Source of the DNA: Pirellulales bacterium | Lineage (GTDB): Bacteria > Planctomycetota > Planctomycetia > Pirellulales > JADZDJ01 | Direction: 5' to 3' | DNA: 38,761 nucleotides | Assembly (NCBI GenBank): GCA_035656635.1 | Contig: DASRSD010000037.1 | Span: 1 to 38,761, forward strand | Shown: positions 3,853-37,713 of the stretch, in pieces | How the letters are laid out: the number at the start of each line of letters is the position of its first letter | How positions within the stretch are numbered: the stretch's first letter is position 1 | The notes under the pieces: model-generated | What the model saw: only the letters and a program-made list of their open reading frames with translations | Databases searched by the model: none | Told to the model about the DNA's origin: nothing | Position numbers and translations under genes: made by a program

Positions 3853-6800
3853 TTAGCCAGACAGCAGCCTTCGGACGATCGAACGACCGCCGATGACGCC
3901 GAGCAACAGCAGAATCCACGACGATGGCTCGGGTACGGGATTGGCGGAGCCGCCGCCGGATTGGAGAAGATTGAGTAGCGCTTGGAGATCGGCGTTGCTG
4001 AATTTGTGATCGCCGTCGAGGTCGCCGATCAGTAGCACTTGCGCATCGGTAAGATTTGGTTTGTATGTCGTCTTATAAGCACTGAGGTTTGTCAGCGCCT
4101 GCTCCATCGGTAGAATGTCGGCGGCGTCGACGTGACCATCCCGATTAAAGTCGCCCGGAATATACGGCGTGGCGGTGATGACGCCGGTGGAATATAGTTG
4201 CGAGAGGTCCCAGCCCATGGGCGTGGTCAAGCTCGGCAATTGAGTACTGGAAAATCTACCACTCAAGGTTCCCCAATCTAGCAAATCAAACGAGGTCGCA
4301 ACGCCGGGTGCGGGAGAAAAGTTGTTGATTAGCGAAACCGTAAGCGATCCGTTCAGGCTAACCGCGCCGTTGGAAAGCACTGCATCGTACTGGCTGCCGC
4401 GGGTCGTACCGCCGATTTCGATATTCGTTTGCGCGCCGCTGTTCAAGGCAAGCGATCCGAAGGTGATAGCACCCAGGCTGTTACCCGGTGCCAGAACTCC
4501 TCCGCTCTTAACTGTCACCAAACCGCCTACCGATCCAGCGCCTTGCAGCGTGCCGCCGGAGTTAACAGTTACGCTGCCCAAGATTGAACTGTTCACGGCC
4601 AAAGCCCCGCCGTTGATTATCGTGCCCCCGCTATAGGTGTTGGCGGCACTCAAGGTAAGCGTGCCTAAACCGCTCTTGGTCAGACCACCATCGGCAGCAG
4701 AACCCAGAGAGGCATAGTGGATTAGCGATTGACCTAGGGTGATGGATTTACCACTGGTGTCAATGATAGCGCCGCCAGCTTGGACGCTTGCGGTGGTCAG
4801 GCCCTGGAGGAACGTCGTGCTGTTGATCGTGGGAGAAAGTGTCCCGCCGTTGAAGTTGATGGTTGCGGTGCCGGTGCCGCGCTGAATTCCGAGCGTTGTG
4901 AGTGTACCACCGTTAAGATTGATAGTGCCACTGCCGCCATTGTGGCCGACGCGCATTACATTGGCAGTCGTGACCTGGCCGGTGCCTGAGCTGTTAAGCG
5001 TGCCAGTGCCCGATTCGCCGACAAGCAGCCACCTACTGGAGTTGTTCACATTAAGGAGACCAGCGGAAATGTTCCAGATGCCGGTAGACCCAGCATAGCG
5101 CCCAATGGAAACATAGCTATTGGAAGTAAACGTGCCGCCGGTCTGGTTGAAGGTACCTGCACCGTATCCCCCCACGAATACATCAGTGTTGGCATTGACG
5201 GTCCCGCCGGAAAGATTATAGATACCCGTTCCAAGTCTTGAGCCGCGGCCGCCGATGACAAAAGCACCGTCGAAATTTCCATTCGCAGTGAGAGTGCCAC
5301 CGGATTGTTGAACCGTTCCCATCGCGGCGGTATTGCTGAAAAAACCGGAGCCCACGACAAATGCGCCGCTTGCGCCTACCGTAATGACGGCGTTGTTTTC
5401 GATCATCAGAGTACCGGTGGCGGGAGTGGCGGAGTTGCCGGTATCGCCGACGTTCAAATCACTGGATACGTGCAACACCGCATTGCCGGAGACAATAATC
5501 GTGCCTACATCGCCCGTGGTTTGACCGGCCGTCAAAATGCCGCTGATATTAGTGGTGCCGGTAATTTGCAGCGTACCGGCATGCGTGAATACCTGGCCGG
5601 TATATGTATCGGTTCCTCCGAGAGTAAGCGTGCCAAAACCGTATTTGTAAAGATTGACGCCCGACAGCGAACCGCTGAGCGTTAGGATGCTGGCCGCGGG
5701 GGTGACGTTTATTCCCAGATCGTTCGTCGTGGTAATGGGGGCCGCAATGGTGTGGCTGCCAGCGGAAACATTGATAGTTGCGGCTGGATCGTCCTCCATT
5801 TTGACGAATGTCAGGACGTTGCCGCCGTTGGCGCCGATCGTGTAGGAAGCGGAGCTTAGAAAATTGATCCGGCTTATGGTTTGCGGACTGTCGAGATTCA
5901 CGGAATAATGATTGGACGAGTTGGTTCCAAAGTTGGCCACGGATCCGGAAGCGCTGGGAACCTGACTACTGCTCCAGTTTCCCGTGGCCGACCAGTTGGA
6001 TGAAGTGCTGCCTGACCAATTTGGATTCACAGGTGCGACGCTGGGCCAGCCATCAGCAGTCCAATATAGATTGCTAAGACCGAAAGTCGGTGCGCCGTTG
6101 CGATTGCCATCGTAGTAGTGGTAGCTAAATTGGTCTTGTCCATTATTGGTTGAGAAAGCGAACTGGCCCGGACCGACACGCGCGCCGTCGTCATCATAGA
6201 ACAGCGTGCCGCCTCCATTCAGTAGATTGACGCCGTTTTGATCGAGAAACGGCCCGGTGGGACTGGTGCTGCGTCCCATGCGAACTTCATAGGTACTGTC
6301 GATGCCGGAACAACACGTGCCCCAGTTGACCATGAGATAATAATAATTACCGTGTTTGATTAACGCGGAAGCTTCGATGCTGGTATTGTCTGCTACGTTC
6401 ACCGGTACCGCACCGGCCAGGCGCTTGCCGGTGGAAGGATCCATTTCGACCACGAAAATTCCTGCATTGTACGAGCCGTAGCTCATCCACATATGGCCAT
6501 CGGTGTCTTGGAGAATATACGGATCGATGGCATTGAAGTTACTGCTATTTCCGGATTGAATGACGGCGCCTTGATCGGTCCAAGCGTAGTTCGGAGCGCT
6601 GGGGTTTAGCGTTGGGCTAGTGGCCAAGCCAATGGCCGAGACCTTGCTGCCGAATGTGGAGACAGCGTAGTACATGTAATACTGGTTGTTTTGAAAGATG
6701 ACGTCGGGAGCCCAGAAAAAACCGCTGAAGCCGGGAACGGCGGCAGTCGTCCATGCCGGCTGCGTTGCGAAGACCGATGGGCCCGTCGTCCAACTTGTAA

Positions 6801-7032
6801 GATCAGTGGACGAGCGCGAAACGATGCCTTGCCCGGTGGCGAAATAGTAATAAGTGCTGCCGTCTTCGATGACGTCGGAAGGATCGTGTGCGTCGATCTC
6901 CCCTGAAAGTTGAGCGAAACTGTGCCGCGGGCAGGCTACGAGAGTTGCACAGACAATTGCGATTAAGAGAACGCGGTGATTACCACGTTCGGTTTCGCCT
7001 GACTGGCGCGCTCGGTTGGTCTTTATGTACAC
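3853..7032 (-). CDS. GH43 arabinanase-like enzyme with beta-strand repeats, dockerin and PEP-CTERM
   Basis: This is a 1059-residue exported glycoside hydrolase. The signal peptide ends near residue 40 (HSFA/QLSG). The GH43 five-bladed propeller spans about 45-333. The three family acids are visible: D50 in AHDPSD (base), D170 in NAIDPY (pKa modulator) and E220 in TSIEAS (acid). The 120-residue spacing between the two Asp matches what I recall for endo-1,5-alpha-L-arabinanases. The HYYD segment (about 305-308) and the GWP end are also arabinanase-like. Autotransporter-associated beta-strand repeats form a stalk (about 340-880). A type I dockerin (960-1025) and a PEP-CTERM tail (VPEP at 1033, hydrophobic stretch, then RRLLSG) follow. 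The start is GTG, 6 nt after a strong GAGGAGGG site at 7039-7046. It lies 327 bp behind the DUF1559 gene on the same strand. Arabinan as the substrate is an inference. Confidence 0.92.
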   Translation of the reverse strand: MYIKTNRARQSGETERGNHRVLLIAIVCATLVACPRHSFAQLSGEIDAHDPSDVIEDGSTYYYFATGQGIVSRSSTDLTSWTTGPSVFATQPAWTTAAVPGFSGFFWAPDVIFQNNQYYMYYAVSTFGSKVSAIGLATSPTLNPSAPNYAWTDQGAVIQSGNSSNFNAIDPYILQDTDGHMWMSYGSYNAGIFVVEMDPSTGKRLAGAVPVNVADNTSIEASALIKHGNYYYLMVNWGTCCSGIDSTYEVRMGRSTSPTGPFLDQNGVNLLNGGGTLFYDDDGARVGPGQFAFSTNNGQDQFSYHYYDGNRNGAPTFGLSNLYWTADGWPSVAPVNPNWSGSTSSNWSATGNWSSSQVPSASGSVANFGTNSSNHYSVNLDSPQTISRINFLSSASYTIGANGGNVLTFVKMEDDPAATINVSAGSHTIAAPITTTNDLGINVTPAASILTLSGSLSGVNLYKYGFGTLTLGGTDTYTGQVFTHAGTLQITGTTNISGILTAGQTTGDVGTIIVSGNAVLHVSSDLNVGDTGNSATPATGTLMIENNAVITVGASGAFVVGSGFFSNTAAMGTVQQSGGTLTANGNFDGAFVIGGRGSRLGTGIYNLSGGTVNANTDVFVGGYGAGTFNQTGGTFTSNSYVSIGRYAGSTGIWNISAGLLNVNNSSRWLLVGESGTGTLNSSGTGQVTTANVMRVGHNGGSGTINLNGGTLTTLGIQRGTGTATINFNGGTLSPTINSTTFLQGLTTASVQAGGAIIDTSGKSITLGQSLIHYASLGSAADGGLTKSGLGTLTLSAANTYSGGTIINGGALAVNSSILGSVTVNSGGTLQGAGSVGGLVTVKSGGVLAPGNSLGAITFGSLALNSGAQTNIEIGGTTRGSQYDAVLSNGAVSLNGSLTVSLINNFSPAPGVATSFDLLDWGTLSGRFSSTQLPSLTTPMGWDLSQLYSTGVITATPYIPGDFNRDGHVDAADILPMEQALTNLSAYKTTYKPNLTDAQVLLIGDLDGDHKFSNADLQALLNLLQSGGGSANPVPEPSSWILLLLGVIGGRSIVRRLLSG

Positions 7033-7359: not shown

Positions 7360-8496
7360 TTACGGGAGCACAGCGTTTGCCTCACCGCCTTCAGCGCTGG
7401 ACAGACTGCGCCACACGTTGATATCTATCACATCGGTGACAAAGTGTGTCGAGCCGTCACAAAAGCTCACGTTAACTCCGCCTTGATGTTTGCTACGCGC
7501 GGCAAAGGTTTCTATGTCAACGTTCGACCGCGCAGCCGGATCTCCGCCGGTACACGTACAAGGCGGAACTCCATCTAGTTCTTGAGTTGTGAGAATTGAG
7601 TAAGTACCACTCCCCCCGCCACCGGTGCACGGAACACGATTTGCGTAGTCGCCTTTTGTATCGTTCGGTAAGAGATAGCCTTCAAAGGTTTGCCCACCGA
7701 GTGCAGTTTCAATTTCGCTGATCGGTCCTCCCCAGTTGGAATCACGCTTGATCGTCCGCACTTCTGCCATCAAAAGTGTATGGCTGGTGCCATCAGGAAT
7801 TTTCCCCAGCGACCTGCTCCCCGGCAGGTTTTGATTGATTCCATTTTTTTTACCCGAAAGACTGGAAGGGCCAAACGGGGCGCCTTTAAAGGCGGTAAGA
7901 CTGTTGCCAGGACTCGTGCCCGTCGCCGTATTGGTGCCATGCTGAGTGTCAATGGCGGTTTGTGTCGTCTGCCCATAATTCGTATTGCCGAAATTGATGG
8001 CATAATTGCCACGCCAGCGGGCCCACATTTGAGGATTGGGGCCACTATTGAATTCGTCTGGATACATGCCGTCGGAAGGACATTCAAAGATCGGAACTTT
8101 TACTGTGCGGGCTGTGTAATTCAATGGGTCGCTAAATGATTTATCCGTATGCACATTGCCCACCATGGCTTTTTCTTCCAGATACGGACAGACCCAAATG
8201 TACCAACCATGATCGTCCCACCAGCTCCCGCCTTCGGGATCGGTGCCAGCAGGCTGCCCTGGCGGTTCATCACCCCACCAATACTTAGTTCCCGGCGGAA
8301 GTTTCTTTTTCGCAGTGTCGTAATTCATCATGGCCAACGCAGACTGCTTAAGATTATTGCCACACTGACTGCGACGGGCGGCTTCACGAGCTGCCTGAAC
8401 GGCCGGCAATAGCAACGCAATCAAGATGCCAATGATTGCAATAACAACCAATAGTTCGACGAGCGTGAAGCCGCGGGCACTGTGGCGAGACCGCAT
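7360..8496 (-). CDS. DUF1559 protein with prepilin-type N-terminus
   Basis: This 378-residue protein has a type IV pilin-like leader. A basic stretch is followed by [10 protein letters not shown] and one hydrophobic helix (about 10-35), the processing site of prepilin peptidase. The C-terminal region holds the planctomycete H-X9-DG motif ([12 protein letters not shown]). Proteins of this family are extremely expanded in Planctomycetes and their molecular role is unsettled; a pseudopilin or envelope-associated role is inferred from the N-terminus. I chose ATG 8496 rather than the upstream TTG 8514 because an AGGAG lies 7 nt before the ATG. A copy of the operator module (8697-8780) lies about 200 bp upstream and points at this gene, so AraC-type control is likely. 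The GH43 gene follows on the same strand. Confidence 0.92.
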
Positions 8497-8696: not shown

Positions 8697-8780
8697 GGCT
8701 GGCATTTATCAACCAACATACAGGCGATAAATCCCGCCGAGAATGGATATTTTTTTCCTGTACATGTATATTATTGACCT
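8697..8780 (-). promoter_or_regulatory. Operator/promoter module, copy A (AraC-type direct repeat)
   Basis: Positions 8741-8780 on the plus strand hold two 17-bp half-sites, ATGGATATTTTTTTCCT and ATGTATATTATTGACCT, starting 21 bp apart. Read towards the DUF1559 gene (minus strand) each ends in an ATnCAT-type core. Twenty bases further on comes TATG (plus-strand cata, 8717-8720), then TTGG...CCAGC (GTTGG/CCAGC stem with one G.T pair, plus-strand 8698-8718). The 40-bp repeat part matches copy C at 32 of 40 positions without gaps. AraC-family activators bind direct half-sites two helical turns apart near the -35 region; that this site is bound by the AraC-type protein encoded at 12746-13681 is inference. 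Confidence 0.75.
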
Positions 8781-8942: not shown

Positions 8943-10430
8943 TCAGTGGGCTGCGAACCAACGCCACTTAGGATGGTGGATGTATGCCAGCGATTCTTGC
9001 ACGTCGAGCCCCTGTTTCGCTTGGGTTTTGAATTGGTTACGGCGGGAATTGAGGATTTGCAACTCCGCAGCCGGGGGTTTATAGCGATTACGATATGGAT
9101 ATTGTTGCCCCACCAATAACGCCAAAAAACCTTCGATGCCGAATTGGCTGCCGGTGTTGCTGAGATGATAGCGGTTAAACCCGGTCGGGCCGTTCTCTTC
9201 GTAAAAGTCCAACAGCGCATCCAGGTGAGAGTCATCGGCATCTTCCCGGCAGTGTTCCCAATAGGGCGTGTTCAGCCGTGTATTGGCGATAAAGTGTATC
9301 GTCAAGAAATCTCGCAGCTCATCCCACGTCGCAGCCCACTTGGTGTTGAACAGGTCCTGAACGGTCGGGGTGATGCCGACGAAGTTGACGAGTTCAACAA
9401 ATGTCTCGCATTGCCAACAAACAACCATCAGAGCGCTTGATTCCAACGGCTCGACAAAGCCGCAAGCGTTGCCGATGGCCATGACATTGTCGACCCATCC
9501 ACGCCGATAGCGACCCGTGCGAAACTTAACGATGCGGTCGCGAACTTGCACTTTGGGATTTTTGCGCTGAAATTCCGCGCGGGCCTCGTCGTCAGAAATC
9601 GCGGAGGAAGAATATACATAACCACGATTGATTTCGCCGACGTGCTCGATCTGCCAGCACCATCCGGCATCCATGGTTTCGGCGGTGGTATAAGGCAAGA
9701 TCGTTTCATTGGTGCGCGGCCAACTGCCGACCAGGGCGCGGTCATTGAACAACGATGCGCTATAGCTGATGAACGGCTCCTCCAAACTGCGGCCTAAAAG
9801 CTCGCTGCGGAAACCGCTGGCATCGATGAAAAAGTCGGCCGCCAATTTCTGGCCGTCCTGTAAAACCACTGCGGAAATTCCTGTTGGGCCACGCTCGATG
9901 CCTTCCACCACGCTGTCGAGAATTTTAATCTCTCGTTCACGCGCAAAAATTTCCAGCGCCGCCACGAGCTTGGGATTGTCAAGATGAAACGCATGCCAAC
10001 TCGGAATAATCGGACCGCCTTCGTTGGGCTGACGGTCGAAGGCTTTTTTCTCAGCCATCAGCGAACTTTGTAAATTCATGTAGCTAAAATCATCGTCGCA
10101 ATAATATCCGTTGGGCCGCTGCAACTCGGGAAAGCGAACGTCGAGCTGTGGCTCGAACGAGTACTCAAACGACGGCCGCGATCCCCACAAAAAATGAATG
10201 CCCATTTTCCACGTGGGCTCGACCATAGAATAAAATCGTCGCTGATCGATGCCCAAGTAGTGAAATAAGTGGAAGGGTGTATTGGGTGTGGTGCTCTCGC
10301 CGACGCCAATCACTCCTATTTCTGGACTGCGCACCAATTGCACGGAGACCTGAGGCATGAATTGCTTCACGGTCATCGCTGCAATCAGGCCCGCGCTGCC
10401 ACCGCCTAAAACAAATAAACTATCGAACAT
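8943..10430 (-). CDS. Flavin-dependent tryptophan-halogenase-like protein
   Basis: This 495-residue protein is of the tryptophan halogenase family (FAD-dependent, reduced flavin supplied by a partner reductase). The dinucleotide-binding GGGSAG is at residues 9-14. The lysine in PTWKMGIHF (K75) sits where PrnA has its catalytic K79. The GWxWxI motif is present as GWCWQIEH (about 256), with Glu in place of the usual Pro. The conserved Glu of EPLES (near 327) is present. I chose ATG 10430 because the glycine-rich motif then begins at the usual distance. The upstream GTG 10481 adds a stretch not expected for the family, though neither start has a clear ribosome-binding site. The substrate is unknown; homologues also occur in polysaccharide-utilisation loci, so halogenation of free tryptophan should not be assumed. 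Confidence 0.88.
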   Translation of the reverse strand: MFDSLFVLGGGSAGLIAAMTVKQFMPQVSVQLVRSPEIGVIGVGESTTPNTPFHLFHYLGIDQRRFYSMVEPTWKMGIHFLWGSRPSFEYSFEPQLDVRFPELQRPNGYYCDDDFSYMNLQSSLMAEKKAFDRQPNEGGPIIPSWHAFHLDNPKLVAALEIFAREREIKILDSVVEGIERGPTGISAVVLQDGQKLAADFFIDASGFRSELLGRSLEEPFISYSASLFNDRALVGSWPRTNETILPYTTAETMDAGWCWQIEHVGEINRGYVYSSSAISDDEARAEFQRKNPKVQVRDRIVKFRTGRYRRGWVDNVMAIGNACGFVEPLESSALMVVCWQCETFVELVNFVGITPTVQDLFNTKWAATWDELRDFLTIHFIANTRLNTPYWEHCREDADDSHLDALLDFYEENGPTGFNRYHLSNTGSQFGIEGFLALLVGQQYPYRNRYKPPAAELQILNSRRNQFKTQAKQGLDVQESLAYIHHPKWRWFAAH

Positions 10431-10481
10431 AAGAATAATTCCATAGCAAGAAGTGCGTCGCGCAGTGGGCTGGTGTGCCAC

Positions 10482-11036: not shown

Positions 11037-12677
11037 ATGCACGTAACCGACCGACGCAGTTTCCTCAAGCACACGGTTTCGTCCGGAGCAGCGATTGCCG
11101 CTAGCTCCTGGCTGGCAGGTATTGCAAGCGCCCAATCACGCGGACCCGCAAAAGCAGTCATTGATCAAAGCCGAATCCGTTCCGATCTTGACCGACACAT
11201 TTTTGGTTCATTCTTGGAGCATTTGGGACGTTCGATTTATACCGGTGTCTACGACCCAAACTCGAAGTTTGCGGACGAGCACGGCTTCCGCAAAGATGTG
11301 ATTGCCGAAGTCAAGGAACTTGGCGTGCCCATCATTCGTTACCCGGGTGGAAATTTTGTCTCGGGTTATCATTGGCTTGACGGCGTGGGCCCGAAGAACA
11401 AACGGCCCACAGTGTTGGAACGTGCGTGGAATTCCTTGGAAACTAATCAATTTGGCACGAATGAATTTATCGAGTGGTGCCATTTAGTGGGCAGCGAACC
11501 ACTGCTCGGTTTTAACTTGGGCACCGGCACGGTCGAGATGGCTGTGGCTTATGTCGAATATTGCAATGTTCAAGAAGGCACCCGGTGGAGCGATCTGCGA
11601 CGCGAGCACGGCTACAAACAGCCACACAATGTTCGGTATTGGTGCATGGGCAACGAGATGGATGGTCCGTGGCAAATGGGGCACATAACAGCCCGCGAAT
11701 ACGGTCAAAAGGCGTGCGATGCTGCCCGGCAAATTCGCGTAGTCGATTCAACCACCAAGCTAATCGCTTGCGGCTCCAGCAACACCATTCTGCCGACTTA
11801 TTTGACGTGGGATCGTGAAGTGCTGGAGGAATGTTACGATCAGGTGGATGGAATTTCACTGCACAATTATTACGGCAATACGCCCGAGTTGACTGGCAAT
11901 GACTCCATGCGCTTCCTGGCGATGAATTTGGATATGGAGCGGCAAATCCACGAAATCGAGGCGGTATGCGATTACGTGCAAGGCGTGCTGCGCTCGCCGA
12001 AGCGGTTATGGCTATCGTTCGACGAGTGGAATGTGTGGTATCGTGAACGAGAAGGAGACGCATTAAACGGGCATGGCAAATTCGCTCCGCACTTGCTCGA
12101 AGAAAAATACAACTTAGAAGACGCGCTGCTCGTGGGCGGCTTCCTGAACACGCTGCTGCGCAACTCGGACCGAGTCCGTGTGGCTTGCCTGGCCCAAATC
12201 ATGAACGTGATCGCGCCGCTGGTGACCAACAATGATGGCGTGCTGCGCCAAACGATTTATTATCCATTCGCATGGGCGCTACAATATGCACGTGGTCGCG
12301 TGATCGATTTGCAAATCGACTGCGAAACGTATCCCATCCGAGCGAAAGGGCTGCGCCCCGATTTTGCCCACAACGATCAAGTGCCGTATTTGGATATTGT
12401 CGCCACGATCGATGCGCCGAATAACCAAGCGAGCGTGTTTATGTTGAACCGCGACCTACAAATGCCGCGCGAATTGACGTTGCAATGGCGGGATCCCAAT
12501 CCCAAGAAAGTTGTGGCATGCCAAACATTGACCGGGTCCGATTTGAAAGCCATCAATACATTCCAGAATCCCAAGAATGTTGTTCCGCAAACACTTGATG
12601 TTCCGCAGGCGAGCTCAAGCATGACGCTGAAGCTGCCCGCGGCTTCATACACCGTCGCGCAGTTTGATGTTTCTTGA
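11037..12677 (+). CDS. GH51 alpha-L-arabinofuranosidase, Tat-exported
   Basis: This 546-residue enzyme releases terminal alpha-L-arabinofuranose from arabinan or arabinoxylan side chains. A twin-arginine signal (DRRSFLK, residues 5-11, hydrophobic stretch, SA/QS near 32) sends it out folded. The GH51 (beta/alpha)8 barrel shows the acid/base E207 in GNEMDG and the nucleophile E330 in FDEWNVWY. RYPGGNF (101-107) and the C-terminal beta-sandwich (about 440-546) fit the family, and the length is normal. ATG 11037 follows AGGAGA (11025-11030) by 6 nt. The gene converges on the AraC-type regulator, 68 bp between stop codons. Its signal route differs from that of the second GH51 enzyme of this window. 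Confidence 0.94.
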   Translation: MHVTDRRSFLKHTVSSGAAIAASSWLAGIASAQSRGPAKAVIDQSRIRSDLDRHIFGSFLEHLGRSIYTGVYDPNSKFADEHGFRKDVIAEVKELGVPIIRYPGGNFVSGYHWLDGVGPKNKRPTVLERAWNSLETNQFGTNEFIEWCHLVGSEPLLGFNLGTGTVEMAVAYVEYCNVQEGTRWSDLRREHGYKQPHNVRYWCMGNEMDGPWQMGHITAREYGQKACDAARQIRVVDSTTKLIACGSSNTILPTYLTWDREVLEECYDQVDGISLHNYYGNTPELTGNDSMRFLAMNLDMERQIHEIEAVCDYVQGVLRSPKRLWLSFDEWNVWYREREGDALNGHGKFAPHLLEEKYNLEDALLVGGFLNTLLRNSDRVRVACLAQIMNVIAPLVTNNDGVLRQTIYYPFAWALQYARGRVIDLQIDCETYPIRAKGLRPDFAHNDQVPYLDIVATIDAPNNQASVFMLNRDLQMPRELTLQWRDPNPKKVVACQTLTGSDLKAINTFQNPKNVVPQTLDVPQASSSMTLKLPAASYTVAQFDVS

Positions 12678-12745: not shown

Positions 12746-13681
12746 TTACGAACGATTATTCCGTGTTTGCGGAACCATGTGTCGATGAAACTCGGTCGGC
12801 GAGACTCCGAAAACTCGCTTAAAAACCCGCGAAAAATGAAACGGATCGATAAATCCAAGTCGATAGGCAACTTCCTGCACTTTGGCCTGAGTATCACTGA
12901 GCAGATTCGCGGCGTGCTTCATCTTCTGTCGCAATAAGTACTGATGCGGAGATTGCTTGCCATACCGTTTGAACAGCCGACAGATATACGGCACGGTTAA
13001 TTGTGACCGGCCGGCAACCTCTTTTATATTTTTCAAATATTGACATTCCAAATCAATCAAATCGCGCAATTGCTGGAACGTTGCCAACGATTTCAAATTA
13101 TCAACTTTATATCCCAATGATTGCTCTGCGATTTTGTACACCAAAGTCGGCACCAGAGAATTGCAAAGTGCCTCGCTATGTCGGGTGCCGCTTATGCCGT
13201 AGCAGATCATCTGATCAAAAAGGTCGCGGATTTCATGGACATCGGCAACATGCTTCAATCCCGAGGGAATAAATCCAATTATGCTCAACAATTGCTTCGC
13301 CTGCCGGCCCACAAAGGTGACGTGATACTTGAGCATTAACTCCGTCCGCGAAGATTGAATCGTGATTGCAGAATTTGGACCAAAGCCAAAAACGGTCCCC
13401 GGCGTAAGATCGTACTGTTTTCCGCGCAGACTCAGCATCCCTTTCCCCTCGGCAACAAACTCAATACTGAAGTAAGGAAAAATTTTACGGTGATAGTGGT
13501 AGTCTCCGCTGAGACGCTCCGATCCACCCACCACAATCTTGATGGGCATGCGGGTACTGGGGTTCAGGTCGAAATGGAAACGCCGAGCTGCCAAAACTTG
13601 CCGGGAGACAAACGCCGGTAGCTCAATTGACTCGAGCCGATTCGATTGTGCGACGTCTATAAGCGTTTGACGAATATCCAC
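12746..13681 (-). CDS. AraC-family transcriptional regulator
   Basis: This regulator of about 311 residues has an N-terminal cupin-like ligand or dimerisation domain (about 45-140). The C-terminal AraC-type double helix-turn-helix occupies roughly the last 100 residues. Its first helix pair lies around IKEVAGRSQLTVPYICRLFK and its second around VQEVAYRLGFIDPFHFSRVFK, followed by the usual FGVSPTEFHR end. I prefer GTG 13681 because GGGGAG stands 7 nt before it; GTG 13696 is also in frame but has no ribosome-binding site, and a stop directly precedes it. The operator module B starts about 140 bp upstream, and a third ATCCAT half-site lies between (13790-13806), which suggests self-regulation. 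The sugar sensed is unknown; arabinose or an arabino-oligosaccharide is inferred from the neighbours. Confidence 0.92.
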   Translation of the reverse strand: MDIRQTLIDVAQSNRLESIELPAFVSRQVLAARRFHFDLNPSTRMPIKIVVGGSERLSGDYHYHRKIFPYFSIEFVAEGKGMLSLRGKQYDLTPGTVFGFGPNSAITIQSSRTELMLKYHVTFVGRQAKQLLSIIGFIPSGLKHVADVHEIRDLFDQMICYGISGTRHSEALCNSLVPTLVYKIAEQSLGYKVDNLKSLATFQQLRDLIDLECQYLKNIKEVAGRSQLTVPYICRLFKRYGKQSPHQYLLRQKMKHAANLLSDTQAKVQEVAYRLGFIDPFHFSRVFKRVFGVSPTEFHRHMVPQTRNNRS

Positions 13682-13688
13682 AGGTAAA

Positions 13689-13694
13689 CTCCCC
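13689..13694 (-). promoter_or_regulatory. Ribosome-binding site deciding the AraC-type start
   Basis: GGGGAG on the minus strand, 7 nt before GTG 13681. It lies inside the coding sequence if GTG 13696 is used. Confidence 0.55.
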
Positions 13695-13789
13695 ACTCAT
13701 TGCCAATCGTTTGGCACAACAAATACCTAGAACCACTATGTTGGCGAACGCAGATTCCCTCTCCTCCTGACTGCCATCCAAAGTCGCCC

Positions 13790-13819: not shown

Positions 13820-13904
13820 AGGTTAAAATTATCCATGAACAGGGAAAAAAAATCCATTCTCAACGTGGTTTTTCGTCAATATGCTGGTTGGTAATTGCCA
13901 GCAT
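13820..13904 (+). promoter_or_regulatory. Operator/promoter module, copy B (AraC-type direct repeat)
   Basis: Reading rightwards, two 17-bp half-sites AGGTTAAAATTATCCAT (13820-13836) and AGGGAAAAAAAATCCAT (13841-13857) start 21 bp apart. Twenty bases after the 40-mer (13820-13859) comes TATG (13880-13883), overlapping a possible -10 box CAATAT (13877-13882). Then comes the palindrome ATGCTGG...CCAGCAT (13881-13904). The 40-mer matches copy C at 36 of 40 positions. The direction is away from the AraC-type gene and towards the 2906-residue protein whose start is about 830 bp away. Confidence 0.78.
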
Positions 13905-14735
13905 CCATGAGGGACCAGGAAATCGCGCTTGGCATTCAGAGGCCATTGCCGGCGTTCAATGCACACCCGGGGGGGTCGCGTCAGCGACAACTTGGTGATT
14001 TTCTGTTTCCCAAATGGGTGGATTTCAACCCAAAGTGATTTTGATTGAACGTGGAATACAAGAGAACATCCGATTCGATCTTCGATGAGCTCGCATACCG
14101 CATGTATTTGCAGCACGTTTAAAACGACAACCCAAAGTCATTTAGAATAATTAGCCCTAGGATGAGCGGGATTTAGTACGAGTGAGACCGAGTCCGACCG
14201 GACCATCTTGCCCCTCGGTCCGGCGGGCTCGGCTTTGGTTGATTAATTAACACGGCAGCAGCAATGACTTACAGATAAACCATATGCTCAATAATCGTAT
14301 CTTACGGGTGAGAGTTTTTGCCAATAAGATGTGAGGAGAGAGTTGTTCCGGTTGGAATCAATCTGGCATGATTTTCATTGGGCTGAATAGTCTTTTTTGG
14401 TTTCTGCGATTGGAGAGAGCATTGCGGAGTTGCACATTAAGTTGAATGAGCACCGATCGTGTGTATTGCCGGTTGGTGACCTCTTTTTTCTTGGTTCAAC
14501 AGCTTGCTTTCCATTGTGTTTAGGCTAGCCGGGGGAGACGTGGGCGCAGTGGTGTATGGGGGATTCTCTGCCAAGAATGTTTCGCTTCGACAGCGTTGTT
14601 TGTCATAAAAAAGATATTCCGATCGTGATTTGCGTTGACCAACAAGCTCGCGGCCGATTGATCGTTTAATTCACATCTTATGATTCCAACCACACGTTAC
14701 AGCTCATCACAAGCTTTATCCTGAGGAGCATTACG
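13905..14735. other. Long leader region before the giant repeat protein
   Basis: About 830 bp lie between module B and the giant gene. The region holds a strong GC-rich hairpin (14188-14232), a small hairpin gtcgc/gcgac (13975-13988) and the giant gene's ribosome-binding site. No recognisable gene was found. A separate promoter nearer the gene is possible but I cannot point to one. Confidence 0.5.
14188..14232 (+). terminator. GC-rich hairpin, possible terminator or attenuator
   Basis: A 15-bp stem (CCGAGTCCG, bulged A, CCGGACC paired with GGTCCGG, CGG, G.T, CTCGG) has a 12-base loop and is followed by CTTTGGTTGATT. The T-tract is short, so it could be a leader structure instead of a terminator. 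It lies about 300 bp downstream of module B and 500 bp before the next gene. Confidence 0.45.
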
Positions 14736-17700
14736 ATGTCACGCAATCGACGGCAAGCAAAGCGGCGGATAGCCTCGGCGAAACTTTGCCATCGGCAAGC
14801 CTGGTTTCGCCGGTATCTACGCGCACTTTCGGGCGGAGTCACCGCTGCCACGATTGGGGCCGGTAGCTTGCTAGGTCAGCCTGCTCAGGCGGCTACGGAT
14901 ACTTGGATTGGAAATACCGCCGGCGCCAATTGGGCGACGCCTGCAAATTGGTCCACCAATCCGTCGCTTCCTCAGACCGGTGATTCGTTGGTCTTTGGTT
15001 TAGCAGGCACGGCAGGCACCGTGCTCAACGACAATCTAACAACCAGCGCTACATACACGTTTGGGACCATTACGTTCAATAACAATGCACCGACCTATAC
15101 GATTGACGCCGCAGCCGGCACTCGCGGTTTTACCTTTAATGTCGGCAGCATCACAAACACCAGCACCAATGTTCAGAATTTCGATGACAACATCACCGTC
15201 AACACCAGCGCCACGTTGACGATGACATCCGGCGGCGGCAATCTTACCTTGGGCGGCAACATCTCCGGGCCTGGCAGTCTCATCACGTCTGGCGCCGGAA
15301 CTTTGACTTTGAGCGGAAACAATTCATTTGCAAACGGAGTTACCCTGGCCAGCGGAGACGCATTGGATATCGACAGCGCAACCGCCATCGGTACGGGTAC
15401 GCTCACGTTTGCGGGCTCTGCGACTCTCGACAACACTTCGGCCGATGCCATCACGCTGTCGAACAACAACGCCGTGAACATTAATGGCGATCTTAACTTC
15501 GTCGGCACGGAAAACCTGAATTTTGGCACCGGTACCGTGACGCTGGGCGGTGGTTCCGGACAGCGAATATTTACCATCAACGGTAGCTCCACGCTGACTA
15601 CGGGTGTCATCAATTCCGTTGTCGGATCGGGCAGCGGCATTATTAAGGCGGGAACCGGCACGTGGACGATCGCGCCCATCGCGGGCAATCTGCCGGCGCA
15701 AACTTCAACGGTGGAAGGTACGCTCACCGTCAGCGCGGGACGGGTTAACATCGGTCAGGACGATGCATTTTTCGGCGGATTGGAAGGTTCGGGCATCGTG
15801 GCAAATGGCAGCAATACTACGCGCTGGTTGACCGTTGGGTCCGACAACGCTAACACAACGTTTTCCGGTTCCTTGATCGACGGCGGCAGCGGGCACTTGG
15901 GGCTCCGCAAACGCGGCACCGGAACACTGACGTTGACGGGCACTAACACGCTCAGCGACCAAATTACCGTCGAAGGTGGCACGCTGGACATTGCTGCAAC
16001 CGGCTCGATTACTCCGGTTTCACCAGGCGCCAATTTGGTGGTTGGCGACAGCGCCACGCCCGCCATTATCCGGCTCGACGGTGGTACGCTGCAGGTGCAG
16101 ACTATTGCACTGGGCACAGGCGCTGGCGTCAACGGAAATAACACCGATAACCGTTCTGGTGCTTTCTACCAAACAGGCGGCACGCTGCAGCTTCTTAACG
16201 AAGCCAGCATCAACAACTTCCGCATCGGCGACGGGGCCAACGGCACGGCCACGGGCAACGGCGGTTATGGTTATTACGGCCTGTCGGGCGGCACGGTCAA
16301 TTTGGCCGAATTCGCGGTGGGCGGCGGCAATAATAGCGGATCGGGAAACATCGGCGTCATGGATATGACCGGCGGCACCCTGAACGATCAGGGTTGGGTT
16401 ACCATCGCTCGCGGCGCCAACGCCACCGGCATCCTGAACATCATTGGCTCCAGCCCAGGCAATCCAAATAATCCGGTAATTAACCTGTCGCAAGGCGGCG
16501 GCGGACAGATTCTATATAGCACGTTCGGTGACAGCCGTTTTTATGCGGTTACCACCATCAGCAACGGTACGATGCAATGTCCGGTAGGTGCAAGTGTTCC
16601 GCTGAACTTGTCAAATACAACCAATGGCAATGGGCTTGCGCTGGGAGCCATGAATCTGAACTCGGGCGGATTGTTGCGCGTCGGAAGCGTTTCGGCCGCC
16701 AATAATATCACTCCTAGCGGCGGCGCCACGTACTTGAATTTCAACGGCGGTACGCTGCAATCTTCCGTAACAAACACCAGTTTTCTTGCCGGCACCGCGG
16801 CGAATAACATCACGGGCATTGTCGTCTATGGCGGCGGCGGGACGATCGACAATAACAGCTTCAATATCGTAATCGGCCATCCTATGGTCGCTCCCGATTC
16901 CGGGGGCGCCACGACGGGAATCACGAATATTGCTGTCGATAGTGCGGGTTCAGGATACATTGGCGCCCCGGCTGTCGTACTTTCTGGCGCGGGGGCAACC
17001 GATGCCACGGCCATGGCCGTGATGGTGGACGATGGATCGGGCAATGGCACGTATAAAATCGACCACATCGTGATGACCAGCCCGGGCATTGGCAATGGAA
17101 CTCAACCAACGGTTACCCTGGTTGGTGGCGGAACAGCCACACCTGGAAGCGTCGGACAAAATCTTACCGATTTCACCTTTGCCTCCAACGTCGGAACCGG
17201 CGGCGGAATGACTTACAAAGGCTCCGGCGTCACCACGCTAGATGGCGTCAATACTTACACCGGGAACACGACGATTGCCGGCGGAACTTTGTCGCTTTTC
17301 ACTGGCGGCAGTTTGACGAGCAATGTGAATATTAATGGCGCCGGCGCCAAGTTTGTTACGAACACCGCTGTCACTTCGACTGTGACGGTTACCAATGGCA
17401 CATTGGATGGAATTGGAACATTGACCAATGTTGTGGTGCCCATTGGCGGCGGCACTGTCTCCAATGGCGGCACGGCAGTAAGTTCCGGCGGATCGCCCAC
17501 CGGCACAATCGCCAGCAGCGCCACGGGAATCAACATTGGTACTCTGACGTACAACGGTACAGGTACTTGGGCTCCCGTCACCTCCGACGCAAATGCCTCG
17601 GCCGGAACGCCTTCGTTAACCGTGGGCACATTAACACTCAATGGCGGAGTAGGCTCGGTCGCCGTCAGTCCCATCAATATCGCAGGCACGTTTACTAATA

Positions 17701-20700
17701 ACACATATACCCTGGCTAAGTACACGACGATCAACGGCACTACTGGCTTTGCAGCGCTAACTCCAAACGTTGTCGGGCTGGGCGGTCGTCAAACCGAAAC
17801 TCTCACCAACAACACGGGGAACAGCACCATTACGCTGACCATCGGCGGTAGTTATCTGATTTGGAACACCGCCGTCACTTCGAATTGGCAGTTGGGCGGT
17901 CCCTCGGATTGGAATTTGTCACAGGGCTTGACCGCTACCACCTATCAATCGACGTCCGGTATCCAAGATGCCGTGGTATTCGACGATACTGCCGGCGCTG
18001 GCAGCAAAACAGTGAACATTTCCAACGGAGACGTCGCGCCGCCGCGGGTCACATTTAATAACACCACCGCGGGCGGGTCTTACACGATAAACGGAACCAA
18101 TGCCATCGCGGGTTCCGGATCGCTATTCGTCAATGGCACCGGCGTGGTGAACATTAACACTGCCAATACTTTTACCGGCGGCGTCACCGTTTCTAATAGT
18201 TTAGGCGGCTCGAATGTGTCTGGCACGCTGGGCATTGGCAGCAACACAGCAATTGGATCCAGCACGTTAACGTTAGGTCTTAAAGCCACGATCGACGCCA
18301 TCGGGGCAGATCGCACCCTCACCAACAACAACGCGCAAATTTGGAACGGCGACATTAACTTCACCGGCTCCAACAATTTGAACATGGGCACGGGCGCGGT
18401 GAAAATCAATATCAACTCCAACAATACGACGGAAAACGCGACCACAGGAACTGTTACGGGTGGCGTGCCAACGGCCTCGACGGTTAACGTCGCGGCAAAA
18501 ACGCTAACCATCGGCGGCCCCATCAGCGGTCCCGGTGTGTCCTTGGTCAAGCAGGGCGCCGGAACTTTGGTGCTCAATGGCGCGGCCACCTATTCGCAGC
18601 AAACAATTGTTCATGCCGGTGAGCTGCAAACAGCCGGCGGCTTGGGCACCATCAACCAAAATATCCAGATTTCGCCGCTGGGTTCGGCCGGCGACAATGG
18701 AACCTTTACCGTGTTAAACGGCACCGTGAACGCAAACATTATTTACATCGCGGGCAGCTCCGTCGGAACGCAGTTTGCCGGTTCCGGCACCATGAACATT
18801 GACGCCGGCGTAGTCAATACCGGCGGCACTACGAATTCTTTGATCGTCGGTTCCGGCGGCCCGGCCGGCACCCAGACAACTCATCCTGCCACGGGAACAT
18901 TGAACATCAGCGGCGGCACGCTCAATGTGAATTTCCAAGGGGTTGCAGCCATTGGCGACCTGGAGGTCGGACGCAACACGGGCATGACGGGCATCGTCAA
19001 TCAGACGAACGGCGCTGTCAACATCCAGAATACCCAAGATCCCAACAATACCAGCGTCTCTGGTTTAGATATGTTGGGCAATGGCGCGACGGCCGCTACG
19101 TACAACATGAATGGCGGCAACCTAACGATCTACAGCAATGCGGGCATTACCCCTGGTGCGGGCGGTATCCGCATGGGTGTTGCCGGCTCGGGGACTGCAA
19201 CTTTCAATCTGAACGGCGGCACGGTACAAACGCAGTTTGTGAATAAGGATGCTGGCGGTGCAACCGGCATTTTCAACTTCAACGGCGGTACGCTTAAAGC
19301 GGCACAAAATAACCTGAACACCGCGAACGTTGGAGCAGGCGCAGCCCCGGCAAACGACAACAATGGTGGCGGCACCGGTTTTATGTCGGACCTTACCGCA
19401 GCCAACGTGCTGGGCGGTGGCGCAATTTTGGACAACAACGGCGTGCAAATGGGGATTTCGCAGGGTCTGATCCATGGGGCGGCCGGTCCGGCCACGGACG
19501 GCGGTCTAACCGCAAAAGGCATCGGCACCCTGGCTCTGTCAGGCATCAGTACCTATAACGGCGGCACGCTCCTCGATGCAGGAACATTGGCCATCGATAG
19601 TGCGTCGGCCATCGGCACTGGCGCGCTGACGATTAATGGCGCTAGCACAACCATCGATAATATTACGGGTGGCGCCATCACGCTGACCACCAACAATGCC
19701 CAGAATTGGAGCAATGACTTTAGTTTTGGCGGAAGCGCCAGCTTGAATATGGGCACTGGCGCGGTCACCCTGAACGCCACGCGCACCCTTACCACCAATT
19801 TGGTCAACGCCGGCGCTACTTTGACCATTGGCGGAGTGATCAGCGGCGTGGGCGACGGATTGATTAAAGCCGGCGCGGGTAATTTGGCATTGAGCGGGGC
19901 AAGCAACTACACCGGTCCCACGACGGTCAAAGGCGGCACTCTTTCGTTGACCGGCAGCGGTGTCATTAATTCGTCCAGCGGCATCACCGTGAGTGGCGGC
20001 CGCCTGTTGCAAACCAGTTCGTCGGCGATGACGCCGATTGTAACGTTATCCAACGGCTCCGTGGACGGCACCGGCACGATTAACACGGTAAACGTAGCCA
20101 ATACTTTTGCAGCGACCGTAACACACGGCAATGGCACCGTGGCCCCCATCACGATCGGCTCGCTAAGCTTCGGTGGCGCTGCGACAGCCAGCATTCTTAC
20201 TTCCGACGCCACTGCTTCGATAGCTAAAATTGCTACGACCAATCTCTCCACCAGCTCAGCCGGCAACATTGTGATCAATGCCGTGAATACCGGCGGCTCG
20301 TGGACTGCAGGGACAACCTACGAATTGTTCGGCTATTCTGGTTCCATCGGCGGCGCAGGATTTAGCAAGTTCGTGGTAGGTCAATTTACCGGTCTGGGAG
20401 CACATGAAACGGTCACATTGACGAATCCTTCAGGTTTTATTGATGCAGTCATCGGCGGCGACACGTTGATCTGGACAGGCAGCTTGGATGGCACGTGGAC
20501 AAGCGCTTCGCAAAGTGCTCCACACAACTGGAAGCTGTCTTCCACCGGCGCAGGAACCGACTTTTTCACCAATGACGCTGTTTCATTCAAGGATGGCGCC
20601 AGCACGGGCACGGTTAATATTACCGCCAATGTGAGCGCTGCCTCGGTGCAATTCGCCAATTCGTCGCAAGCCTACACGCTGGAATCAACCGGAGGTTTTG

Positions 20701-23456
20701 GCTTGGTCCAGGGATCGGTTTCCATTACTGGCGGCGGGGTAGTAACCATTGCCAACAATAACACCTACTCCGGCGGCACCACGCTGAGCAATGGCACGCT
20801 TAATTTGCAAAGCGCCGGTGCGTTGGGCGCAGGCACATTGACGATCGCTGCTGGCACGCTCAACAACACCAGCAGTGGTGGCGCACTTACGCTGACCAAC
20901 AATATTCAGGAAAACTGGAGCGGTGACTTTACATTCACCGGATCAAACGATTTGAATATCGGTACTGGAGCGGTGACGCTGTCCGGCTCGGGGACAACTC
21001 GTAGTGTAAACGTTGCAAACGGCGATCTTACGGTTGGTCCGATTTCTGGTTCTTTGGGAATTACTTTGCCGGGACCGGGCACTTTGACGATTGATTCCAG
21101 CAATCCGAACAACGGGGCTCAAAGTAATATCACCGGCGAAATCAACATCACGGGGGGCGGCAAATTACAGATCGGCTCCCCCACGTCGGCCACATCCAGC
21201 GCCAGTGATTTCAACGCCGGTGGGCTGACGGGCAACGGCACAGTCGAAAATGGCAGCACCGGCAATCCCGGCACCACGAACATTGTGGAACGCTGGTTGA
21301 TTCTCAATAATTCCGCCAATGATGTCTTCAGCGGTGTGTTGCAAGATGGGGCCGGCGGCGTCAATGGCCGTCTGGGCTTAAGCAAGAGCGGTGCGGGAAG
21401 TTTAACGCTGTCTGGGGTGAATACGTTAAGCGGTGCCATTACCGTGGCCGGTGGACAAATGATTCTGACCGGAACGATTCAATCGTCCAACAACTCCGGC
21501 ACCGCCAATGGTCCGGTCAACATCGGTACCAATGCCATCGGACAGAACGGTATTCTTACTGTCCAAAATGGCACATTGATTGTTCCTAAGAATAACGCGC
21601 CCAGCATTCAGGTGGGCGGTGGACCAAACACGGCGGGCGTGTTGCAGGTGAATGGAGCAAGCGCTAACGTGCAAACGACCAGCGAACTATGGTTGTCCAC
21701 CGCCGATAGCGGCTACGGTTCCATGGACATTACCAACGGTTCGGTCACCGTGGGATCGTGGCTCGCCGTGGCGCGCGGCGGTGGCGTGGGCCTGATCAAC
21801 ATGAGCGGCGGCACGCTCAATCTCAATGCTAATGCCCTGACCATCGGGTCCCTAGGAGGCGCCACCGGCGATGGCATTGTGCACGGCCAGGTCAATTTGA
21901 CAGGCGGCCAAATTATTACCAACTCCCTCACCAGTGTCTTTGTTGGCGAGCAGGCTAACGGCGTGCTGAATGTTTCCGGCACGGGCCTGCTTACCGTGGG
22001 AGGCACGGAGGGCTTGGCGTTTGCTCGCGGGAATGCCGCCGCATTTGGAATAATGAATTTGGGCACCGGCGGCATGGTGCAAACCGCCACCGTTCACCCG
22101 GGCCAAGTGATTACCGGCGCCAATGTTGGTGGAACTGGCACCTTGAATTTCCACGGTGGCACACTACAAGCCACTTCCAGCGATACCTTTACGACAGGTT
22201 TCGACTTCATGCCGGCAAATGGCATTGGGTATGCCGGCACCCTTAATGTCTACAGTTATAGAGGAGGAGCAATTATCGACGATGGCGGCAATAACATTTC
22301 GATTGATTTGCCAATCCAAGCCCCGACCGGAAACGGTGTCAGTGCGGCTGGACTAGCCGTAAGCGGCAGCGGTTTCGTGGACACTCCTGCCGTTCAAATT
22401 ACCGGCGGTGGTGGTACAGGTGCCACGGCCAATGCGGTCATTGACGCCAATGGACATTTGACGGGCATTGTAATCACGAATCCGGGCGTTGATTACACCA
22501 GTGCACCAACATTTGCTTTGGTGGGCGGCGGCGTTAATAACACCGGGGCCATTTCTGGTACGGACATCTTGGTATCCAACACCAGCGGCGGCTTGACCAA
22601 GCTTGGCAATGGCACTTTGAATTTGACAGCTGTTAGCACTTATACTGGTCCAACTTCCGTCGCGGCCGGAACCTTGCATTTAGGGATAGCCGACGCAATC
22701 AGTTCCGCTTCGAATCTGCAAATGGCAGGCGGCACATTCAATACCGGCGGCTTTAATCAATCGCTGGGAGCGTTGAAAGTAATTCAGACCTCAACGATCG
22801 ATATGAGCTCGCCGCAAGCAGCGCCAGAAATTCTCAATTTTGCTAATAGTCGCAACGTCCATTGGACAAATAATTCGGCTAGCACTCCTGCAATCCTCAA
22901 CATCGTCAGTTGGAACGATGCCAATACCGATCAAATCATTTTCCCCAGTCAGAATTCACTGAATGCCAACCAATTGAATCAAATTGAGTTCAACGGCTCA
23001 GGTTTCGCGCAATTGGTTCATGTAACCGGTGGCTATGAATTAGAGCCTTCAGCAACTCCAACCCCTGGGGCATTATTGTACGGCGATGTGAATCAAGACG
23101 GCCACGTTGACGCCAGTGACCTTGTTGCCTTGGAAAAAGTTCTGATAAACATTCCGGCCTATGAAAATGGATCGTTTCGTCTGGGCGGAGGTCTCTGGGA
23201 TAATTCGCAGGCAATTTACGTTGCCGACATCAATTACGATGACACCATCGATAATGCTGACGTGCAAGCCCTTATCAATTACCTAAAGGCTGGCAACGGT
23301 TCGACGACGCCAACACCGGAACCGGATACCCTGGTACTGCTTTTCCTGGGTTCGATTCCTGGGTTGTGGATGGGCCGCAAACTACGCCGGCAAAGAGCCT
23401 CTGATTCCACCAAAAACGCAGACAACGATGCCGACAACCAAGGAACGACCGGGTAA
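14736..23456 (+). CDS. Giant autotransporter-type beta-strand repeat protein with dockerin and PEP-CTERM
   Basis: This protein has 2906 residues. An unusually basic leader runs into a hydrophobic stretch ending near residue 52 (GQPAQA/ATD). The body is a Gly/Thr/Asn-rich beta-solenoid with at least eight autotransporter-associated repeats of the GTLTLSG-N-TYSG-GT-GGTL type. Tryptophan-rich segments restart at about 54, 1041 and 1911, dividing it into three large modules. Two segments of the GSGY-aP-GGG-GATA type occur, near 735-805 and 2535-2605. A type I dockerin (GDVNQDGHVDASD from 2783, then DINYDDTIDNADVQ) precedes a PEP-CTERM-like tail: PTPEPDT, hydrophobic stretch, RKLRRQR, and an atypical extension of about 20 residues. 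ATG 14736 follows GAGGAG (14723-14728) by 7 nt. It is probably a cell-surface or extracellular structural protein; no catalytic domain is recognised. Confidence 0.9.
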   Translation: MSRNRRQAKRRIASAKLCHRQAWFRRYLRALSGGVTAATIGAGSLLGQPAQAATDTWIGNTAGANWATPANWSTNPSLPQTGDSLVFGLAGTAGTVLNDNLTTSATYTFGTITFNNNAPTYTIDAAAGTRGFTFNVGSITNTSTNVQNFDDNITVNTSATLTMTSGGGNLTLGGNISGPGSLITSGAGTLTLSGNNSFANGVTLASGDALDIDSATAIGTGTLTFAGSATLDNTSADAITLSNNNAVNINGDLNFVGTENLNFGTGTVTLGGGSGQRIFTINGSSTLTTGVINSVVGSGSGIIKAGTGTWTIAPIAGNLPAQTSTVEGTLTVSAGRVNIGQDDAFFGGLEGSGIVANGSNTTRWLTVGSDNANTTFSGSLIDGGSGHLGLRKRGTGTLTLTGTNTLSDQITVEGGTLDIAATGSITPVSPGANLVVGDSATPAIIRLDGGTLQVQTIALGTGAGVNGNNTDNRSGAFYQTGGTLQLLNEASINNFRIGDGANGTATGNGGYGYYGLSGGTVNLAEFAVGGGNNSGSGNIGVMDMTGGTLNDQGWVTIARGANATGILNIIGSSPGNPNNPVINLSQGGGGQILYSTFGDSRFYAVTTISNGTMQCPVGASVPLNLSNTTNGNGLALGAMNLNSGGLLRVGSVSAANNITPSGGATYLNFNGGTLQSSVTNTSFLAGTAANNITGIVVYGGGGTIDNNSFNIVIGHPMVAPDSGGATTGITNIAVDSAGSGYIGAPAVVLSGAGATDATAMAVMVDDGSGNGTYKIDHIVMTSPGIGNGTQPTVTLVGGGTATPGSVGQNLTDFTFASNVGTGGGMTYKGSGVTTLDGVNTYTGNTTIAGGTLSLFTGGSLTSNVNINGAGAKFVTNTAVTSTVTVTNGTLDGIGTLTNVVVPIGGGTVSNGGTAVSSGGSPTGTIASSATGINIGTLTYNGTGTWAPVTSDANASAGTPSLTVGTLTLNGGVGSVAVSPINIAGTFTNNTYTLAKYTTINGTTGFAALTPNVVGLGGRQTETLTNNTGNSTITLTIGGSYLIWNTAVTSNWQLGGPSDWNLSQGLTATTYQSTSGIQDAVVFDDTAGAGSKTVNISNGDVAPPRVTFNNTTAGGSYTINGTNAIAGSGSLFVNGTGVVNINTANTFTGGVTVSNSLGGSNVSGTLGIGSNTAIGSSTLTLGLKATIDAIGADRTLTNNNAQIWNGDINFTGSNNLNMGTGAVKININSNNTTENATTGTVTGGVPTASTVNVAAKTLTIGGPISGPGVSLVKQGAGTLVLNGAATYSQQTIVHAGELQTAGGLGTINQNIQISPLGSAGDNGTFTVLNGTVNANIIYIAGSSVGTQFAGSGTMNIDAGVVNTGGTTNSLIVGSGGPAGTQTTHPATGTLNISGGTLNVNFQGVAAIGDLEVGRNTGMTGIVNQTNGAVNIQNTQDPNNTSVSGLDMLGNGATAATYNMNGGNLTIYSNAGITPGAGGIRMGVAGSGTATFNLNGGTVQTQFVNKDAGGATGIFNFNGGTLKAAQNNLNTANVGAGAAPANDNNGGGTGFMSDLTAANVLGGGAILDNNGVQMGISQGLIHGAAGPATDGGLTAKGIGTLALSGISTYNGGTLLDAGTLAIDSASAIGTGALTINGASTTIDNITGGAITLTTNNAQNWSNDFSFGGSASLNMGTGAVTLNATRTLTTNLVNAGATLTIGGVISGVGDGLIKAGAGNLALSGASNYTGPTTVKGGTLSLTGSGVINSSSGITVSGGRLLQTSSSAMTPIVTLSNGSVDGTGTINTVNVANTFAATVTHGNGTVAPITIGSLSFGGAATASILTSDATASIAKIATTNLSTSSAGNIVINAVNTGGSWTAGTTYELFGYSGSIGGAGFSKFVVGQFTGLGAHETVTLTNPSGFIDAVIGGDTLIWTGSLDGTWTSASQSAPHNWKLSSTGAGTDFFTNDAVSFKDGASTGTVNITANVSAASVQFANSSQAYTLESTGGFGLVQGSVSITGGGVVTIANNNTYSGGTTLSNGTLNLQSAGALGAGTLTIAAGTLNNTSSGGALTLTNNIQENWSGDFTFTGSNDLNIGTGAVTLSGSGTTRSVNVANGDLTVGPISGSLGITLPGPGTLTIDSSNPNNGAQSNITGEINITGGGKLQIGSPTSATSSASDFNAGGLTGNGTVENGSTGNPGTTNIVERWLILNNSANDVFSGVLQDGAGGVNGRLGLSKSGAGSLTLSGVNTLSGAITVAGGQMILTGTIQSSNNSGTANGPVNIGTNAIGQNGILTVQNGTLIVPKNNAPSIQVGGGPNTAGVLQVNGASANVQTTSELWLSTADSGYGSMDITNGSVTVGSWLAVARGGGVGLINMSGGTLNLNANALTIGSLGGATGDGIVHGQVNLTGGQIITNSLTSVFVGEQANGVLNVSGTGLLTVGGTEGLAFARGNAAAFGIMNLGTGGMVQTATVHPGQVITGANVGGTGTLNFHGGTLQATSSDTFTTGFDFMPANGIGYAGTLNVYSYRGGAIIDDGGNNISIDLPIQAPTGNGVSAAGLAVSGSGFVDTPAVQITGGGGTGATANAVIDANGHLTGIVITNPGVDYTSAPTFALVGGGVNNTGAISGTDILVSNTSGGLTKLGNGTLNLTAVSTYTGPTSVAAGTLHLGIADAISSASNLQMAGGTFNTGGFNQSLGALKVIQTSTIDMSSPQAAPEILNFANSRNVHWTNNSASTPAILNIVSWNDANTDQIIFPSQNSLNANQLNQIEFNGSGFAQLVHVTGGYELEPSATPTPGALLYGDVNQDGHVDASDLVALEKVLINIPAYENGSFRLGGGLWDNSQAIYVADINYDDTIDNADVQALINYLKAGNGSTTPTPEPDTLVLLFLGSIPGLWMGRKLRRQRASDSTKNADNDADNQGTTG

Positions 23457-26779: not shown

Positions 26780-26987
26780 AATCGTTAGCCAGTTTTGCAA
26801 GAACGGTGGAGAAAAATTGCTGCCTAGTGTTCGGAGCGATAATCGGATATTCGACCGTCAAAACAAAATTCTGCTGTCTTGGTGTGTGCGACGCTAGCGG
26901 CCTTCCGGCGTGGCCCGCGGCACGCTGGCCGGTCTTTGAAGTGAAAAGCTTCAAGGTAAATCACGGATGCCGACCGCAAGAAGCCAG

Positions 26988-30275: not shown

Positions 30276-30280
30276 GCACC

Positions 30281-32921: not shown

Positions 32922-32925
32922 TATT

Positions 32926-32959: not shown

Positions 32960-32977
32960 CCTACTAGGTGTGGCATA

Positions 32978-37702: not shown

Positions 37703-37713
37703 AGGAACTAGTG

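Follow-up and report, generated by a model that had tools for sequence, protein, structure and literature searches.

In the closest described system, the araBAD promoter of E. coli, AraC activates via the adjacent I1 and I2 sites, as described in two reports (PMC4486848, PMC3711423). The K-12 record shows araI1-I2 as direct half-sites with a period of 21 bp, with the −10 box at 37 bp. Related operators are found beside uxaE (tagaturonate epimerase) in other families of the order, where the regulator is homologous to the one described below (35–43% identity over 23 loci) and the operators have the same period of 21 bp and the same divergent layout; their half-sites, unlike those described below, mostly read GGTCAAGAATnnnCAT. 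A literature search on planctomycetes found no title on such operators.

The window, that is, the whole stretch of 38,761 nucleotides analysed here, carries an arabinan-degradation cluster that includes an arabinanase with PEP-CTERM (3853–7032) and two alpha-L-arabinofuranosidase-type genes (11037–12677 and 24257–26800). The occurrence of DUF1559 and PEP-CTERM points to a planctomycete. Within the cluster lie three modules, which we designate copies A, B, and C, each composed of an operator of ~40 bp, a spacer of 19–20 bp, and a 23-bp block (Table 1). We consider it likely that these modules are promoters activated by an AraC-family protein, with the geometry of E. coli araBAD.

Table 1. Coordinates of the three modules, the genes behind them, and the regulator gene in the window.
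Feature	Position	Strand	Remarks
Copy A, tandem AraC-type half-sites	8743–8779	minus	GGTCAATAATATACAT (8779–8764) and GGAAAAAAATATCCAT (8758–8743), period 21
Copy A, block	8698–8720	minus	TATGTT (8720–8715), likely −10 box; start predicted at ~8708 from related promoters
DUF1559 prepilin-like gene behind copy A	7360–8496	minus	~212 nt from predicted start; start codon read from sequence
AraC-family regulator	12746–13696	minus	Pfam AraC_binding and HTH_18; probable regulator of the three promoters
Copy B, tandem half-sites	13821–13857	plus	GGTTAAAATTATCCAT (13821–13836) and GGGAAAAAAAATCCAT (13842–13857); divergent from the AraC-family gene
Copy B, block	13880–13902	plus	TATGCT (13880–13885), likely −10 box; predicted start ~13892; sole copy with the long dyad (7-bp arms)
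PATR/dockerin protein (2906 aa), next gene after copy B	14736–23456	plus	~844 nt from predicted start; target status uncertain
Copy C, tandem half-sites	28411–28447	minus	GGTCAAAATTATCCAT (28447–28432) and GGGAAAAAAAATCCAT (28426–28411)
Copy C, block	28367–28389	minus	TATGCT (28389–28384), likely −10 box; predicted start ~28377
LamG PEP-CTERM protein behind copy C	27196–28152	minus	~225 nt from predicted start; start codon read from sequence

The ~830 bp behind copy B (13905–14736) contain no reading frame of note and no Rfam match, and may represent an extended leader, a gene since lost, or an RNA that escaped annotation; at gathering scores, Rfam matched nothing in the whole window. A tryptophan-halogenase-like gene (8943–10481; PF04820, E 1.3e-96) lies between the prepilin-like gene and the first arabinofuranosidase gene. 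The region 29345–38691, beside the arabinan cluster, encodes an IS91-type transposase zinc-binding domain, a phage-type integrase, and type I restriction-modification genes (EcoEI_R_C, Methylase_S, and N6_Mtase), and is likely a mobile island.

Operators with the half-site geometry of araBAD

Comparison between the window and E. coli araBAD revealed that (i) all three operators consist of two direct 16-bp half-sites with a 21-bp period, as araI1-I2 does; (ii) the distance from the start of the second half-site to the start of the −10 box, which in the window is an inferred box, is 38, 38, and 37 bp in copies A, B, and C, respectively, and 37 bp in E. coli; (iii) E. coli I1 and both half-sites here have TATCCAT or ATCCAT in common; and (iv) an AraC-family regulator is encoded at the locus, divergent from copy B. 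The two systems differ in that the block behind the −10 box is absent from araBAD, and in that E. coli AraC targets araBAD, whereas the putative targets here are a prepilin-like protein and a LamG PEP-CTERM protein. The best NCBIfam match of the regulator was the AraC model NF007860, with a score of 63.9 bits that is far below the cutoff of 208; by this model, therefore, the regulator is not an AraC orthologue. In the K-12 araBAD record (L151), an inverted repeat (CTCCAT...ATGGAG) surrounds the start. The spacer of copy A, alone among the three, makes an inverted repeat of its own (GGCGGGATTTATCGCC, 8723–8738).

With a half-site matrix, the three copies scored 37.4–38.5 and the next best pair in the window 14.5, a gap that demonstrates isolation rather than discovery since the matrix was built with the copies. 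No additional operator was recognised in the window for the arabinanase gene or the two arabinofuranosidase genes.

Operators of related regulators

Of 296 genomes sampled from the order, 37 had a homologue of the regulator (E ≤ 1e-20, own genome counted), as did 16 of 397 genomes of the class (E ≤ 1e-55). The order search gave 41 matches, of which 30 loci, including the window's own gene, were taken; with 6 loci added from the class, 35 related loci were examined. By a pattern that was composed after some of the loci had been inspected, tandem half-sites with a period of 21 were located at 23 of these 35 loci; like those of copy B, they lie on the opposite strand to the regulator gene. Among the 12 loci that fail the pattern, L033 has a variant of it and L010, which belongs to the window's own genus, has a four-site array of its own. 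TATGCT lies 20–21 nt behind the operator at 5 of the 23 loci (L011, L013, L018, L023, and L030), compared with 19–20 nt in the window.

The block itself was found at none of the 35 related loci, where the best match had 6 mismatches in 23 positions, and the start regions of the 23 relatives contained no inverted repeat that exceeds shuffles; even the best was equalled by 58 of 500. This best case is an inverted repeat behind the operator of L025 (TGGTTACGAACCA); this locus also has CCAGC 12 nt behind a −10-like TATTCT, the distance seen in the window. The repeat is probably due to chance because L037, a relative of the same genus, does not have it. In G001, a genome of the same genus as the window, four tandem GCAA-type half-sites at 21-bp spacing (L039:6806–6882) lie beside an AraC homologue, whose match (51% identity) is interrupted by a stop; the array is upstream of a DUF1559 gene and is not followed by the block.

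The −10 box and the predicted transcription start

The preliminary description assigned the −10 box to CAATAT or TAATAT at the left edge of the block. TATGCT/TATGTT, the first 6 bp of the block, fits better and is preferred here because TATGCT sits at the same place behind the operators of related regulators; at the position formerly claimed, copy A reads CTGTAT. The CAATAT/TAATAT choice, which is less likely, would also leave part of the left arm of the proposed palindrome untranscribed. A sigma-54 promoter, for which the consensus is GG-N10-GC, was rejected, as the spacing is 9 in copies A and B and copy C has GA.

The position of the start was derived from the related promoters. At five loci (L011, L013, L015, L018, and L030), the −10 box is followed at 6–7 nt by an ATG that begins a reading frame of 415–419 aa, the first 45 residues of which are nearly identical among the five; L017 is similar, with the ATG at 8 nt. 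The frame of L013 is a tagaturonate epimerase according to Pfam. The box ahead of these tagaturonate-epimerase-like ATGs reads TATGCT or TAGGCT. Judging from sequence, the genes at the five loci are probably leaderless transcripts under AraC-type control. Because the ATG follows the box by 6–7 nt in these apparently leaderless transcripts, the start should follow the box by ~7 nt. In the window, the same distance would place the start in the loop of the supposed palindrome, and the left arm would thus be an untranscribed −10 box. The view of the block as a promoter element is supported: each copy carries a likely −10 box and start site for one of three AraC-type promoters.

Conservation and descent of the block

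The three copies of the block share the consensus TATG(C/T)TG(G/A)TTGnTAA(A/T)TGCCAGC. The block of copy A reads TATGTTGGTTGATAAATGCCAGC on the minus strand, and relative to it the other two copies carry 3 and 4 substitutions in their 23 positions. Identical columns across the three copies amount to 31 of 40 in the operator, 6 of 20 in the spacer, 19 of 23 in the block, and 3 of 40 and 4 of 40 in the 40-bp flanks, which bears out the report of a conserved block 19–20 bp behind an operator-like core. Relatedness is still detectable in the spacers of copies A and B (12 of 20 positions identical; 0.1% of shuffles as good) and of copies B and C (12 of 19; 0.02%), and is not detectable in those of copies A and C (6 of 19; 22%). 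The three copies probably had a common ancestor, the sequence comparison suggests, and the spacer drifted while the operator and block were kept, because two of the spacer pairs are still related while operator and block stay conserved.

A search of the window for TGSTTGNTAAWTGCCAGC with up to 3 mismatches gave 4 matches, whereas shuffles gave a mean of 0.42 and none of 100 reached at least 4; the 3-mismatch match at 8974–8991 on the plus strand was dropped, and the three copies were retained. When the 23-bp pattern was searched with up to 3 mismatches in the window's own genome and two other genomes of the family, only the three window copies were found, and the reversed control pattern gave one match in the same genomes, in G001. 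The own genome also matches AAAAATCCATTC on contigs 51 and 78, within open frames where no module is seen. In 396 genomes of the order, the operator pattern (up to 3 mismatches) yielded, beyond the own copies, only three look-alikes (L006–L008), one each in G366, G392, and G052; these have 3 mismatches and were rejected with three-copy matrix scores of 7.0, 6.5, and 12.1, respectively, versus 61.0–64.4 for the copies. A three-copy sequence model run on 196 genomes recovered the copies at E values of 6.8e-26 to 2.3e-23 and nothing else better than 0.0066; matches at E ≤ 1, present in 39 of the 196 genomes, are read as chance. In a wider contig collection, the operator-plus-TATGYT pattern gave 73 matches with no planctomycete title, judged to be chance from the titles alone, and a search with the regulator as query gave 26 pattern matches, none at a confirmed relative.

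Sequence, not pairing, is conserved

The block had been described as a palindrome with a covarying pair, whose paired arms persist while the sequence varies. Neither statement holds in the alignment. Two-sided changes occur in 0 of 8 pairs; one pair has changed in a single arm (C-G to U-G in copy A), 4 are invariant, and 3 are broken in at least one copy. Variable columns number 3 of 12 in the arms and 2 of 10 in the loop. Perfect inverted repeats reach 7 bp in copy B (as good in 20 of 3000 shuffles), 5 bp in copy C (513), and 3 bp in copy A (2812), so that a clear palindrome exists in copy B only and the arms of copies A and C are ordinary in shuffles. On its own, the missing covariation is weak evidence because little power can be had from three sequences; a stronger argument against pairing is that copy A has lost the symmetry.

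These data bear directly on a 5′ RNA stem-loop at the mRNA start that would protect the mRNA or control translation, which now appears very improbable. As RNA, the whole block of copy B folds clearly above shuffles (z −3.65), and those of copies A (−1.70) and C (−1.21) do not. The left arm coincides with the likely −10 box, and the predicted start lies in the loop; 43-nt RNAs that begin 4–5 nt upstream of the predicted start and lack the left arm show no folding advantage over shuffles (z +1.25, +1.57, and +0.64); and base pairs kept by compensatory change, as expected of a structured 5′ RNA, number 0 of 8 in these three sequences. On the aligned copies, what is conserved is probably the sequence and not a stem.

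A second operator, also proposed in the preliminary description, is a more serious alternative, though on balance an unlikely one. A dimeric repressor bound to a dyad centred at the start (TGCTGG-N10-CCAGCA) would block RNA polymerase while AraC would still activate, and this reading is compatible with AraC-type activation for the rest of the module. It would account for the conservation past the start, where all three copies agree at 14 of the 17 columns that follow the −10 box while the spacer has drifted, and for the 7-bp dyad of copy B beyond shuffles (20 of 3000). However, dyad symmetry in every copy, as expected of such an operator, is not found, the perfect arms of 3 bp in copy A and 5 bp in copy C being ordinary in shuffles, and the arms are as variable as the loop; moreover, the genome contains no further block within 3 mismatches, and hence no sign of a wider regulon. 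An imperfect operator could still lie over the start site.

Instead, the start might be overlapped by a third and weak AraC half-site, through which the regulator itself would exert repression or autoregulation; we regard this as improbable. The sequences GGTTGATAAATGCCAG (copy A, plus strand) and AATTAACAATCAGCAT (copy C, minus strand) are the top matches behind the operator, the match in copy C has a corrected chance of 0.009 with the relatives' matrix, and the array in G001 shows that four tandem half-sites can stand beside a homologue in the same genus. The remaining corrected chances, by contrast, are 0.12 and 0.10 for copies A and B with the relatives' matrix, 0.08, 0.23, and 0.22 for copies A, B, and C with the own matrix, and 0.07, 0.18, and 0.05 with the mixed matrix; the preferred strand and offset vary by copy, and several matrices were tried.

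The block may also be read as coding, from the ATG within TATG(C/T)T. All three copies would encode M-L-V/I-x-N/K-C-Q, and the C-to-T change in copy A is synonymous, but the frames stop at unrelated points (codon 10 in copy B, codon 12 in copy C, and about codon 60 in copy A), changes are not concentrated in third positions, and the ATG is upstream of the predicted start. Such a leader peptide is hardly credible. These alternatives are partly compatible with activation by an AraC-family protein, and the likelihoods given for them are not shares of one whole.

A proposed local AraC-type regulon

In the explanation that we favour, AraC-type activation, the three paralogous promoters would form one local regulon in the arabinan-degradation cluster. 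An AraC-family regulator, most likely the product of 12746–13696, would bind both direct half-sites as a dimer and, when bound by inducer, would touch RNA polymerase from the half-site adjoining the −35 position. TATG(C/T)T would serve as the −10 box, and transcription would begin ~7 nt on, in the middle of the supposed palindrome; the block would thus comprise the −10 box, the start site, and the first transcribed bases, retained as sequence and unpaired. We infer that the 12746–13696 protein binds these half-sites and that the inducer is arabinose or an arabinan product. Several observations count against AraC-type promoters: 12 of 35 related loci are without the half-site pattern, 18 of 23 are without the exact TATGCT at its position, the next gene behind copy B begins only after 844 nt, and the regulator scores 63.9 bits with the E. 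coli AraC model, for which the cutoff is 208. In addition, the constraint extends 10 bp beyond the predicted start, which exceeds the needs of a −10 box. A second operator, a weak third AraC half-site, or a constraint on initiation could be behind this conservation past the start.

It is conceivable, if doubtful, that a second regulator, or the AraC protein itself, recognises the 17 bp around and behind the start as an element specific to this regulon. If this were true, each of the three genes would have a double-checked promoter: activation would come from the −35 side, and an element of a sort not found in the related promoters or at araBAD would gate the start site.

The RNA structure claimed for this locus thus gives way to a probable regulon of one AraC-type protein and three promoters, with starts predicted to within 1–2 bases. 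The conserved block at the start site becomes a small, well-delimited question. For this group of regulators, the result supplies a half-site pattern, and it points to araBAD-like spacing far from the enterobacteria.
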